From: Calothrix sp. FI2-JRJ7
GTDB taxonomy: Bacteria > Cyanobacteriota > Cyanobacteriia > Cyanobacteriales > Nostocaceae
Reading direction: 5' to 3'
DNA: 64,000 nucleotides
Assembly: GCA_019359675.1 (NCBI GenBank)
Contig: JAHHGX010000075.1
Coordinates: 1-64,000 of the forward strand
The notes under the pieces were generated by a model. It made no database searches, had not been told where the DNA came from, and saw only the letters and a list, made by a program, of their open reading frames with translations. The first letter of the stretch is position 1; each line of letters starts with the position of its first letter. A program made the translations under genes and the position numbers. This document shows positions 18,727 to 25,733 of this stretch, piece after piece.

Positions 18727-19242
18727 TTTCTCAAACTAAAAGCCCCTATAGAATTTACTTAGGTAAATTAAATTTAAATCTTGGGGAACTAATGTATGCC
18801 AGCCTGCTTCTGGTGTTAACGGGTGGTTTTTTCGATAAGTCACTTATGCCAGAATACAACATATAGAGTTTTGCCTATGATAATACCGATAATATCTTGT
18901 AAATAAAATTGAATAAACTGAGCTATATATCTGTCCAAAGGCAGATGTCTTTATTAAAATTTAAAGTGTGTCAAGTTATCAACAAGATAGTAGCATCGCA
19001 CTACCGATTATAAGGAATTTGCTGTTAACTAGACGTAGATAATAAGTGAACTCTGATTTAAGTCGCGATCGCAAAAACACTTAGACTGTGCAGCACAACA
19101 AAAAAAACCGAAATTGTGTTGTCACCAGTACATTAGATTGCATCAAGGCGTAAAGCCAATTTCTTCCGGGAGAGATAATTAGTTTTTGATATTAAACGTT
19201 CGTTTACAGTTAAATAGCCTCAAATACACAGAGGAGCGAACC
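18727..19242. other. Intergenic region with the only HIP1 site seen
   Basis: There is no gene in this roughly 516-bp gap. It carries GCGATCGC at 19065-19072, the only copy of the classical cyanobacterial HIP1 octamer noticed in the window. CAGAGGAGCG at 19229-19238 is the ribosome-binding site of the next gene. Confidence 0.6.
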
Positions 19243-19620
19243 ATGAAGGTATTTGGTAATACCACACAAAAGATTTTTTTAGCAAGCTGGGTATCTCTCA
19301 ACCACGCGCAAACTGAAGACAAAAATATTATTCATCAGAACCATCTTCCCAAAAAGCCAGGTTTTGATTTTTTGAAGCCGTTGCGTTCGTTTGTAGATAG
19401 CATTGAAGTTAGCGACAGCAAAATCGCGCATCGTCTTTGTAAATTTATTCCATCCCAATGTCCGTTTGAGCGCGATGTAAAGTTATTCGGCAAAACCTTA
19501 TTCCACATTCCGCCAATGTGTAAGCTCAATCCTTTATATGACGAGGTAGTTGGCTTACGCTTTCGGGCAGTGTGTTACCTTGCTGATAAATGTGGCGAAG
19601 ACGTTTCGCAATACTGTTAA
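19243..19620 (+). CDS. Mo-dependent nitrogenase C-terminal family protein
   Basis: The product is 125 residues from the ATG at 19243, chosen because GAGGAGCG lies at the right distance; an upstream in-frame ATG at 19186 has no such site. The C-terminal half matches the cyanobacterial Mo-nitro_C family: CKFIPSQCPFERDVKLFG, HIPPMCKLNPLYDEVVGLRF and CYLADKCGEDV, with six conserved-looking cysteines. The family name comes from similarity to a nitrogenase-associated region, and the function is unknown; no nif genes are nearby. The pattern of cysteines could bind metal, but that is inference. Confidence 0.85.
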   Translation: MKVFGNTTQKIFLASWVSLNHAQTEDKNIIHQNHLPKKPGFDFLKPLRSFVDSIEVSDSKIAHRLCKFIPSQCPFERDVKLFGKTLFHIPPMCKLNPLYDEVVGLRFRAVCYLADKCGEDVSQYC

Positions 19621-19714: not shown

Positions 19715-21760
19715 TTATTTTTTCCACTGTTGAATGGCTCTTTGTGCTGCGCTGTAAGCGGGTGTTCCTTGTGGAACTAGAGTGGCTGTACTAACTGCCG
19801 CTTGTCTGTCACCTTTTGCCGCGCGCTTTCTCGCTAGATTTAATATTTCCTTACTCCATTTATCGATAGATTTTTGCGCTGTGTCGAAACCTGGCTCACC
19901 TTTTGGTACTTTTTTAGCAACTTCTATAGCACGGTTATAGCTTGATGCTTGTCCTGGTTTAACCAAACCTGTAGCTGCTTCAACAACTGTTTTATTACTT
20001 ACATATTGTTTGGCCTGCTGGCGCCATTGCATAACTGCTGAATCTGCTTTTGGGTATAACGCTTCATTTTCACCAATTAGTTGAGCAGCAGCAACAGCCG
20101 AAGAGTACTGGCGTTTTTTAGCACGTTCCTGTGCTAAATCAAATATCATACTGTTCCAAACTTGAATATTAGCCTGCGCTTGAGAGTATTGCTGGTCGTC
20201 TGGTTTGATTTTACGTGCGGCAGCGATGGCTATCTTCAAATCATTTGCTTGTGTAGGGGTAAGCGATAATCTATCTAACTCGGCAAGTGCTTGTTTACGA
20301 ATTTGTGGGCTTATTACTATTGGTGCTGCTACTTGAGGTTTTGGTGTGGTCTCAGGTATTGCACTTGCAGTGGGTGATGCGGTAGGTTGTATAGTTGGGC
20401 GTGTAGTTGGTTGTGTAGTTAGTTGTGTAACAGGCGCCGTTTGCTCAGATGCACGAGGGGGTCTAGCGACTGAATTTTCTGGAGCAGTTCTAACGAGTGA
20501 TGTTTCATCTGGGGTGACATTAGATGATGTTGAATTATTTTGCTCTACTCCAGATTGATTACGGAATAATAAAAGTACTATCATCCCTAGCAGTAACGTC
20601 ATGCTACCACCCCACAATAATACTTGTAGCCAAAATGGAACACCTGCACTATTTTCGTGTTCTTGTTCCTGATGTTCGTCTCGATGTTCGTTTGGAAGGG
20701 GAATGCTGCTAACTGGTTGTTGAGTTTCAATCCTAGGTCTAGCTGGAGGAAGCGAAGGGGGTAAGCTTCGTTGACTACCTTGTGGAATTGCTGACTGTAC
20801 ACCAGAATTTATATATCCTTGCCCATATTCACCAAAATTAGTTGTGGCAACTTGATTTTTGATGTTAGTCGCATTTTGAGGATTTTGAAGCTGCGAATAG
20901 TAATTTGGTGGAGACTGTGCTGGATGTGAGTTTTTGTTTGTAGCGCTTTCTAATAGGGGAGCTGATAGTGCCGAAGCGAAGATTTCTTCAGATACTACTA
21001 TCGCTGGTGCGTCGTCGTTTTCTAATTCAAAGTTTCCCAAAATAACCTGCTTGCTTGAAGTAATAACTGTGACAGGGTTTTGTGTCGGGCGCCAGAAATG
21101 CTGACAGAGTTCTGGTGTCCGAATGCTTAAATAGGCTTCTAATTCGCCTAATGTGTTGCCATTACCTGAACGTAAAGCCTCTAAAAGTGCTGCTGTAAAG
21201 AAACCGTGTCCGAGTTCGTTGCTTTCGTAGGAAAATTGTTCGGGTTGGCACGACAAAATCAAGGGGAGTTGTAACTCCTGCGCGAGGTCAATGATTTCTT
21301 GCCCAACATATATCTCGTTCAATGTTCCAAACGCACGGTTAATATCAAGCAACATTAGTAAGTTAACGCCTGATACCTGTAGACTTTGCATCAGGACTGC
21401 AACTTCAATGCCCGTTTCTTCAATACGTTCAGGAGTTCCATCAATGGGCATTAAATAATCTCTACCGTTGTGGTTTACTCCGTATCCACTGAAAAAAAAC
21501 CACACTCGGTCTTGGGGGTGCCAACAAGCGGCGGCTAAATCCTCAAGTAGTAATAATATATTTTCCTTAGTTGGAGTAGTCGGTCGGTCACCAATTGGCG
21601 GCGAAGTATCGCTCATCAACAAGCATTGCTGCTCTTTGAAGGCGCCATCTTCAATCAAAAAAGCCCTGAGCGCCATAGCATCAGCTTCGGCACAAGCTAG
21701 AGGTTGAAGGAACTGATATTGATTGATACCGATGGCTATCGCCCAGTTATTTGCCATCAC
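19715..21760 (-). CDS. Caspase-homologue (orthocaspase-like), catalytic dyad replaced by Tyr-Asn
   Basis: This is a 681-residue C14-like protein. The p20 fold is clear (WAIAIGINQY, FFFSGYG, MLLDINRAFG). The catalytic His of the usual SGHG is Y93 (SGYGVNHNG), and the catalytic Cys of the usual D-x-C is N141 (DINRAFG). Proteolysis is therefore not expected; such YN variants are known among cyanobacterial caspase homologues and may act as scaffolds or regulators. After a Pro/Gln/Ser-rich linker there is one membrane helix (about 374-396), another Thr/Pro-rich linker, and at least three helical repeats of the form 'VPxGxPxYxxAQxxIxxW' to the C-terminus. The domain order is thus cytosolic pseudo-caspase, membrane anchor, extracytoplasmic repeats (topology inferred). 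Confidence 0.9.
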   Translation of the reverse strand: MMANNWAIAIGINQYQFLQPLACAEADAMALRAFLIEDGAFKEQQCLLMSDTSPPIGDRPTTPTKENILLLLEDLAAACWHPQDRVWFFFSGYGVNHNGRDYLMPIDGTPERIEETGIEVAVLMQSLQVSGVNLLMLLDINRAFGTLNEIYVGQEIIDLAQELQLPLILSCQPEQFSYESNELGHGFFTAALLEALRSGNGNTLGELEAYLSIRTPELCQHFWRPTQNPVTVITSSKQVILGNFELENDDAPAIVVSEEIFASALSAPLLESATNKNSHPAQSPPNYYSQLQNPQNATNIKNQVATTNFGEYGQGYINSGVQSAIPQGSQRSLPPSLPPARPRIETQQPVSSIPLPNEHRDEHQEQEHENSAGVPFWLQVLLWGGSMTLLLGMIVLLLFRNQSGVEQNNSTSSNVTPDETSLVRTAPENSVARPPRASEQTAPVTQLTTQPTTRPTIQPTASPTASAIPETTPKPQVAAPIVISPQIRKQALAELDRLSLTPTQANDLKIAIAAARKIKPDDQQYSQAQANIQVWNSMIFDLAQERAKKRQYSSAVAAAQLIGENEALYPKADSAVMQWRQQAKQYVSNKTVVEAATGLVKPGQASSYNRAIEVAKKVPKGEPGFDTAQKSIDKWSKEILNLARKRAAKGDRQAAVSTATLVPQGTPAYSAAQRAIQQWKK

Positions 21761-21936
21761 TGTGATTGCACTTGGTTTACATTATCGAAGAATTGCGGTT
21801 TGCTTCTGCTAAAAAACAAGGCTAACCTATGTCTAATAGTCTAAGTGATTATTTCGACCAGCCAGATTTAAGGTTAAATTTATTACTTGCTTTTTAATGC
21901 AATCTCAATTAGGAGTTTCTCAGGAGCGAAAAACAT

Positions 21937-22485
21937 ATGAAAAATAGTGTTCATAAACCTTTAAGCATAAATACACTACAGTTTCAGAATATTTTAAAGT
22001 TATTTAATTCCTCTTTGCCTAAGTTGGAAGCAAAAATCCGGATAGTTAAAGCCATATTAATGTTAGGTATAGCCGTACCTGTATGGGTTGCTACGGAAGG
22101 AATAGCACCACAATTAGTGCGAGCTTATACTGCAACAGGTGATATTGTCATTGACCGCTTGTCTGAAGAAACTTACCAAAACATGCTAACTAGAGCAGAA
22201 GCAGCAGCACGCGCGGCCGCACAGCGAACTTTTGATCAAGATATTTTAATTACAGAAGTATCGGTTATAGTATCTGGGCAAAATTATGGAGCAATTGCAC
22301 CAATACTAGAATTACGAGTTAGTCGTCAACAATGGCGTAACCGTCCTGACCCAAAAGTTTGGGCAAAGTATTTTAAAACCGCACGCAGTTTATTACAATT
22401 TGACTCCTCAGTAAGTCAACAACAACCAGTTCCTCAGCCAGAAACAGCACCAGCACCAGCAAGTCCAAGAAATCCGAACCAGTGA
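21937..22485 (+). CDS. Unknown membrane-anchored or exported protein
   Basis: The 182-residue protein has an unusually long N-terminal lead before a hydrophobic stretch at about 39-57 (VKAILMLGIAVPVWVATEG). It then has a conserved-looking domain with the alanine-rich helix ARAAAQRTFDQDILITEVSV and a strand region GAIAPILELRVSRQQW. The tail is Pro/Ala/Gln-rich (QQQPVPQPETAPAPASP). I do not recognise a functional family; similar small exported proteins occur across cyanobacteria. The ATG at 21937 follows CAGGAGCG with good spacing. It is divergent from the pseudo-caspase and 88 bp ahead of rpmF. Confidence 0.75.
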   Translation: MKNSVHKPLSINTLQFQNILKLFNSSLPKLEAKIRIVKAILMLGIAVPVWVATEGIAPQLVRAYTATGDIVIDRLSEETYQNMLTRAEAAARAAAQRTFDQDILITEVSVIVSGQNYGAIAPILELRVSRQQWRNRPDPKVWAKYFKTARSLLQFDSSVSQQQPVPQPETAPAPASPRNPNQ

Positions 22486-25358: not shown

Positions 25359-25733
25359 ATGGCACGTAAAATCATCGAACTCGATACAGGCAATGGTGAA
25401 ACTATCCTAGTAGCAGTAGAAGTACCAGAAGTGTCAGTAGGACGTGTAGCTGCACCAAGCGATGTAGCTATAGAAAAAGTAGACCGGAGTTTTGATACCG
25501 TTCGAGACTTGATTATACGTGGTTGCCGTCCAATTACGCAGGCATTTAAAGTCTTACAAAAAGAATCACAACCTGCATTTGCCGAAGTTGAGTTTGGTAT
25601 AAACTTTACAGCTAAGGGTTCTGTCTACGTCGTCGAATCTACTGGACAAGCATCACTAAAAGTAAAAATAACCTGGAACTTGGCGCCAGACACAAACAAA
25701 TTACCACCCCCACCACCCGAAGAACAAGCGTAG
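25359..25733 (+). CDS. Trypco1 (CU044_2847-like) domain protein
   Basis: The 124-residue protein has the layout of the trypsin-co-occurring domain 1 family. It starts with a strand-rich region (IIELDTGNGETILVAVEV), followed by FDTVRDLIIRGCRPITQAF and the conserved end FAEVEFGINFTAKGSVYVVE with a Val/Lys strand, then a Pro-rich tail. These domains are described from NTP-dependent conflict systems, where they sit beside trypsin-like proteases and effector modules; the molecular role is not known. About 366 bp downstream on the same strand lies a broken trypsin-like gene, which agrees with the family's usual context. Confidence 0.8.
   Translation: MARKIIELDTGNGETILVAVEVPEVSVGRVAAPSDVAIEKVDRSFDTVRDLIIRGCRPITQAFKVLQKESQPAFAEVEFGINFTAKGSVYVVESTGQASLKVKITWNLAPDTNKLPPPPPEEQA

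Follow-up and report, generated by a model that had tools for sequence, protein, structure and literature searches.

The stretch of DNA analysed here (64,000 nucleotides of Calothrix sp. FI2-JRJ7, referred to as the window) contains an open reading frame on the reverse strand at 19715-21760, which encodes a YN-type transmembrane pseudo-orthocaspase. A GTG start codon immediately precedes the ATG at 21757, and the latter is the likely start, judging from aligned relatives that begin at this point with MANNWAI or a similar sequence. From this ATG the gene (19718..21757, with its stop codon at 19715-19717) encodes 680 amino acids. Residues are numbered from its Met, such that Y93 and N141 of a preliminary description of the locus correspond to Y92 and N140 in the following. 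The product comprises, in order, a pseudo-p20 caspase domain (residues 1-242; 21032..21757), a variable linker that is weakly conserved in the alignment (residues 243-374; 20636..21031), a single membrane helix recognized by hydropathy (residues 375-398; 20564..20635), a Pro/Thr/Ser-rich linker (residues 399-478; 20324..20563) and a predicted TPR-like helical-repeat domain at the C-terminus (residues 479-680; 19718..20323), all encoded on the reverse strand. A 12-base tandem repeat (20385-20429, 3.8 copies) lies inside the coding stretch of the Pro/Thr-rich linker.

The adjacent gene on the other side of the start codon (21937..22485, forward strand) is transcribed away from the pseudo-caspase and encodes a small exported-type protein of 182 amino acids with a signal-peptide-like N-terminus, as judged by eye. 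No Pfam or NCBIfam family was found above cut-off for this protein. The two divergent ATG codons are separated by an intergenic stretch (21758..21936), in which one sigma-70-like promoter match was detected versus 1.1 expected, i.e., chance level. The next gene downstream of the pseudo-caspase (19186-19620, forward strand) encodes a Mo-nitro_C protein (Mo-dependent nitrogenase C-terminus) and was found in 10 of 22 stretches compared, namely the window, L006-L013 and 13 wider ones. A protein with Trypsin-co-occurring domain 1 (Trypco1) is encoded at 25359-25733 on the forward strand.

The N-terminal domain matched Pfam Peptidase_C14 with 57.2 bits (cut-off 21.4; residues 5-206, with the GTG-encoded residue counted), and its AlphaFold model reached a pLDDT of 93.8 and a pTM of 0.92. 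The best VIA match of the model was Arabidopsis metacaspase 4 (Z 24.6, rmsd 2.1 over 211 residues), and the predicted fold is shared over the whole p20 model with type II metacaspases and the MALT1 paracaspase (VIA Z 24.6 to 6w8r_B and 22.1 to 3uo8_C, with 21% and 16% identity in those alignments). Unlike the window protein, which lacks the dyad, these two are Cys proteases. A phmmer search of the PDB with the single protein returned no caspase; the profile of 102 orthologues did match caspases, the best being metacaspase-1 at 6.3e-10. In the profile alignment, Y92 (codon 21482..21484) and N140 (codon 21338..21340) occupy the His and Cys columns of the HC relatives (FFFSGHG...LILDACRSQG versus FFFSGYG...LLDINRAFG). 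The catalytic His-Cys dyad is absent, and by its sequence the window protein is not an active orthocaspase. The earlier reading of this gene as a caspase homologue with both catalytic residues replaced (Tyr-Asn), in which the fold is retained, was thus confirmed, both by the alignment and by structure prediction. Among the 102 aligned orthologues, no alternative His/Cys pair was present at the catalytic columns; the Cys columns conserved in more than half of the rows were C45 and C170, and the corresponding His columns were H177, H184, H220 and H221. Assignment to a defence system was considered and rejected: PADLOC reported only a generic caspase model, and NCBIfam caspase_w_EACC1 scored 37.3 bits, far below its cut-off of 140.

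The pseudo-active site is conserved beyond chance, with Y92 retained in 95 and N140 in 87 of the 102 orthologues, yet other parts of the p20 domain are more constrained, since Y92 ranked 31st and N140 59th among the 242 columns. W86, the Trp shortly before Y92, is kept in 97 of 102. The residue preceding N140 is Ile in 53 and Met in 35 of the 102, at a position where the HC relatives carry a small residue (the Ala of DAC). Two acidic residues of the aligned p20 domains, D26 (98 of 102) and D138 (101 of 102), appear by motif, rather than by superposition, to be the equivalents of Asp95 and Asp211 of TbMC2, the two Asp residues given in PMC6426788 for the basic substrate.

A match was found in all 118 genomes of the same family, in 117 cases with a best E value of 1.1e-87 or lower and in the remaining one (G024) with 8.2e-35. 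The proteins that combine a p20 with the repeat domain were collected from fetched loci, which represent a part of the genomes counted and include near-identical congeners. Among the 117 proteins thus obtained, the dyad was YN in 92, YS in eight, CN and YR in three each, and YH, HN and YK in two each; LN, HS, YQ, YI and a Tyr with an unreadable second site were each seen once. None of the 117 carried HC, and Cys was absent from the second site of all 116 proteins in which this site could be read. Conversely, 26 of the 31 p20 rows without a repeat domain were HC, the other five being one YN protein cut by a contig end, one HN and three incomplete sequences.

In a p20 tree for which the two dyad columns were blanked, the proteins with repeats lay on one side of a single branch that separates them from the HC relatives (support 87, unstarred). 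The lone repeat-less row among them was the YN protein truncated by its contig end (L088). On this tree the first site changed 6 times and the second site 14 times, and the clade therefore has no strict requirement for Asn at the second site. From these sequences, we read the pattern as one old loss of the Cys, followed by drift of the residue that replaced it. In the CN, HN or LN orthologues (L061, L068, L092, L101, L104 and L109) the first site has changed and the second-site Cys has not been regained.

The hydropathy of the membrane helix was at least 1.6 in 116 of the 117 relatives and 1.51 in the remaining one. In the structure model the C-terminal 203 residues form nine helices with a mean pLDDT of 96.1. 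These data support the preliminary description, in which a caspase domain without activity is joined to a membrane helix and to helical repeats. The repeats were less readily classified. PknG_TPR, the only TPR model listed by Pfam, scored 18.6 bits versus a cut-off of 27, and the sequence profile of the repeat domain matched designed helical repeats (best 1.4e-6). The best VIA match of the model was likewise a designed repeat protein (Z 8.7), and Foldseek returned nothing from the PDB at E≤0.001. The helical hairpins are predicted with high confidence, but no Pfam TPR model exceeds its cut-off in the window protein, and the fold class is best given as TPR-like, with no closer assignment.

The same genome encodes a second protein with these repeats, a 705-residue membrane protein (L050:2044-4158 on the reverse strand, contig C67; 33% identity, E 9.3e-16) whose gene adjoins that of Hsp33; neither Pfam nor NCBIfam gave a family for it. 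Its helix lies near the N-terminus, preceded by several Lys/Arg and followed by two Cys. This arrangement points to a location of its repeats outside the cytoplasm. In the pseudo-caspase family itself, positive residues flanking the helix are nearly equal in number (205 before and 193 after, summed over 117 proteins; more before in 42 proteins, more after in 37 and tied in 38), and the positive-inside rule therefore gives no topology for the window protein. No N-terminal signal was seen by eye on the p20 domain. Together with the helix flanks of the paralogue, this would place the p20 inside and the repeats outside the cell.

The divergent arrangement with the small exported-type gene is recurrent. 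Members of the neighbour family were missing from 5 of the 22 stretches. In the other 17, namely the window, L006-L013 and 8 of the 13 wider stretches (7 of the 12 from outside the family), they were always located head-to-head with the pseudo-caspase. The profile used to trace the neighbour more broadly was built from neighbours of the pseudo-caspase and is biased towards them, which applies to the following counts. At E≤0.001 the family was detected in 38 of 80 genomes, comprising 23 of the 38 genomes that carry the ortholog and 15 genomes that do not; at E≤1e-40, it was detected in 18 of 38 ortholog-positive versus 1 of 42 ortholog-negative genomes. The coordinates placed it next to the ortholog in 14 of the 80. 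In the single ortholog-negative exception (G134, a hetR-positive genome) the neighbour is head-to-head with a p20-less protein of 419 amino acids (L139:862-2118, forward strand), which consists of a membrane helix, a long Ala/Ser/Pro linker and repeats. Another protein that bears the repeats but gave no p20 match is encoded in a hetR-negative genome (G298). The p20-less form in G134 suggests that the helix, the repeats and the neighbour may constitute the core of the system, and that the p20 may be an input that can be lost.

The occurrence of the ortholog was scored in 388 genomes of the class, together with that of nifH (threshold E≤1e-100) and of hetR (Pfam Peptidase_S48). The ortholog was scored with profile A2, built from 42 diverse orthologues that were partly drawn from the same 388 genomes; its threshold (E≤1e-80) was chosen after the scores had been seen, and the category includes non-YN dyads. 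HC proteins lie just under this threshold (best 7.4e-76 in G302; HC in L134). A further eight genomes below it, with ambiguous or fragmentary sequences (G408, G324, G298, G134, G283, G332, G366 and G258), were counted as negative. In total, 183 genomes carried the ortholog, 185 hetR and 116 nifH. The ortholog and hetR occurred together in 175 genomes, the ortholog alone in 8, hetR alone in 10 and neither in 195 (phi 0.907, or 0.908 with the eight ambiguous genomes counted as positive). For the ortholog and nifH, the corresponding numbers were 87, 96, 29 and 176 (phi 0.364). Within the hetR-positive genomes, the ortholog was accompanied by nifH in 83 and unaccompanied in 92, 10 had neither gene, and nifH never occurred in the absence of the ortholog. 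The ortholog was thus present in 83 of 83 nifH-positive versus 92 of 102 nifH-negative genomes of this stratum (p 0.002), and in 4 of 33 versus 4 of 170 genomes of the hetR-negative stratum (p 0.025), both values being uncorrected for kinship. The distribution of the ortholog is mostly accounted for by hetR, and a weaker association with nifH remains within the hetR strata. In the genome of the window strain, both nifH and hetR are present.

Three of the genomes with the ortholog and no hetR match (G334, G376 and G422) have assemblies fragmented into 440 to 660 contigs, and the missing hetR is likely to reflect assembly gaps. Genome size alone was rejected as a cause of the distribution, as only 7 of the 63 listed hetR-negative genomes of at least 4 Mb have the ortholog (74 unlisted genomes without matches lie outside this count). 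Among the ortholog-positive, hetR-negative genomes whose dyads were read, G369 had YQ, G411 YR and G123 LN, and G455, G137, G334 and G376 had YN. Two hetR-negative genomes with YQ and YR orthologues (L133, L150) are accompanied in their family by two more with YI and incomplete copies (L165, L166). A relaxed constraint on the dyad in the absence of hetR is nevertheless poorly supported, given that four hetR-negative genomes retain YN and two hetR-positive genomes (G138 and G285) also carry YR.

The use of hetR as a marker of filaments was taken from the literature, in which exceptions are recorded, rather than from the morphology of the strains. Peptidase_S48 appears as HetR in a table of ten filament-core genes in PMC2821919, which also cites other work for the widespread presence of hetR in filamentous species without heterocysts. 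The same paper reports a hetR orthologue in Synechococcus PCC 7335, such that hetR is not strictly filamentous.

Kinship was addressed with an rpoB tree of 80 chosen genomes, rich in discordant ones, of which 77 entered (G405 gave no match, and G120 and G126 gave partial matches); G383 was kept despite an absurd, suspect branch of 8.26. On this tree the ortholog changed 13 times, hetR 12 times and nifH 24 times. In five pairs that differ in the ortholog across starred branches, hetR differed in the same way in 2.2, in the opposite way in 0.0 and not at all in 2.8 on average; the averages for nifH in the same pairs were 1.2, 0.4 and 3.4. With only five supported pairs, p cannot reach 0.05 for either gene, and this phylogenetic control is underpowered. 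Among 15 independent pairs that differ in nifH, the ortholog did not differ in 13.6 on average, which indicates that nifH comes and goes mostly without the ortholog.

The class to which the window protein belongs is already published (2010, 2019 and 2021), and the protein is a further member of it. The YN pseudo-orthocaspases were named and mapped by Klemencic et al. (2019; PMC6426788), who treated YS and YN as two distinct clades; with that survey and PMC8283722 (2021), the window protein shares the Y-N dyad, the caspase fold, the acidic pocket, the Trp before the Tyr, and hosts in Calothrix and other filamentous genera. As described in PMC6426788, YN proteins have no identifiable C-terminal domain, and the class analysed here adds to that account a conserved repeat domain, a conserved gene in divergent orientation and a distribution closer to that of hetR than to that of nifH. 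According to both surveys, the YN clade occurs in multicellular nitrogen fixers ‘only’, in contrast to the 96 of 183 ortholog-positive genomes that gave no nifH match. The earlier ‘cbMCalpha-TM’ type of Jiang et al. (2010; PMC2853523) also has an N-terminal p20, a single transmembrane helix and, in one table row, the H-Y and C-N changes; it differs in comprising only five proteins, in having the unicellular Acaryochloris among its hosts and in the lack of repeats in the section describing it. The YN protein of Nostoc PCC 7120 is WP_010997820.1 according to PMC8283722, the sole paper of the open-licence literature in which this accession is mentioned. No experimental study of a YN protein was evident from the titles and abstract openings among the listed matches in that literature, in keeping with the preliminary statement that YN variants are known but their function is not. 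Relative to the published YN descriptions, what is apparently new is the distribution with hetR, the domain of C-terminal repeats, the neighbour paired with the gene and the form that lacks the p20.

The membrane-anchored dead caspase probably functions in multicellular life as a scaffold or receptor and not as a protease, and this view has to be weighed against several others. The p20 domain could regulate active orthocaspases in the manner of c-FLIP on caspase-8, by pairing with HC paralogues and inhibiting or activating them at the membrane. The retained fold and pocket would suit such a role, and HC-type paralogues are indeed encoded in the same genome: a PF00656 search gave five other C14 places, of which L004 and L005 show clear HC motifs, L001 contains a DCCHSG and L002 a GHG site. 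The search missed the window gene itself, and its list is therefore incomplete and no census. The fifth place, L003 (FSGYS...LDSGYS), is probably of the YS/YG pseudo-orthocaspase type. Pairing through the p20 is not the sole role, however, if a p20-less derivative keeps the helix, the repeats and the neighbour, and small cyanobacteria are argued in the discussion of PMC6426788 to hold only pseudo-variants; regulation of orthocaspases is thus considered unlikely. A stress or photosynthesis factor resembling SyOC (sll0148) of Synechocystis PCC 6803, acting as a pro-death or oxidative-stress component, is a further candidate. SyOC and the YS/YG proteins are likewise cyanobacterial pseudo-orthocaspases, with a YG or YS dyad (PMC7889975, PMC6426788); deletion of SyOC raised H2O2 tolerance (PMC7889975), and pseudo-orthocaspases have been proposed to act in photosynthesis (PMC6426788). 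SyOC itself is YG, however, and the YS clade carries a TAT-like N-terminal extension (PMC6426788), whereas the window protein lacks one and begins at the first p20 strand. The window clade moreover follows hetR, in contrast to the YS type, which is reported in unicellular forms too (PMC6426788, PMC8283722), and a SyOC-like function appears improbable.

A specific role in nitrogen fixation by multicellular cyanobacteria would agree with the strain sets of the 2019 and 2021 surveys, with the residual nifH association in both hetR strata (again uncorrected for kinship) and with the Mo-nitro_C gene next downstream in the window. It is weakened by the genome counts and by the rpoB pairs: 92 of the 175 genomes with both the ortholog and hetR lack nifH, 29 nifH-positive genomes lack the ortholog, and the ortholog was constant in most of the nifH-differing pairs. 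We regard this role as very unlikely. Still less credible, to the point of being scarcely worth entertaining, is another enzymatic activity of the Tyr/Asn site. The conservation of Y92 and N140 might be taken in its favour, but no support was found for Asn as a catalyst, and the replacement of the second site by S, R, K, H, Q or I and of the first by C, H or L within the clade is unlike the behaviour of a catalytic pair.

A signalling or scaffolding role, as already suggested in the preliminary description, is plausible. Consistent with it are the conservation of the non-catalytic site, the lack of HC in all 117 proteins, the conserved exported-type neighbour and the p20-less derivative. The p20 domain in the cytosol would bind an Arg/Lys-bearing protein segment through the retained acidic pocket without cutting it. 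The membrane helix and the Pro/Thr-rich linker would carry the TPR-like repeats outside the cytoplasm, where these may bind a partner in the envelope, the best candidate being the small exported-type protein encoded head-to-head. The whole protein would in this way connect a state inside the cell with the filament's envelope or septum. Taken as a whole, the account of a non-cleaving transmembrane receptor or scaffold of hetR-bearing, mostly filamentous cyanobacteria, in which the caspase domain serves as a binding module at the membrane, has in our estimate about an even chance of being correct. A more far-reaching version is advanced only tentatively, and we would sooner doubt than expect it: that the filamentous cyanobacteria sharing hetR possess a dedicated transmembrane pseudo-caspase, whose outer repeats are paired with the head-to-head exported protein as an envelope or septum signalling unit of multicellularity, and that a protease was converted once into a cell-cell or envelope receptor with a function independent of nitrogen fixation and cell death.

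If the gene forms part of the filament core of hetR-bearing species, as opposed to serving nitrogen fixation or cell death, the function of the YN class would become directly testable in Anabaena, with the pseudo-caspase and its exported-type neighbour as a two-gene target. The gene would in that case also exemplify how a multicellular bacterium has put the caspase fold to a new use, as a receptor that does not cleave.
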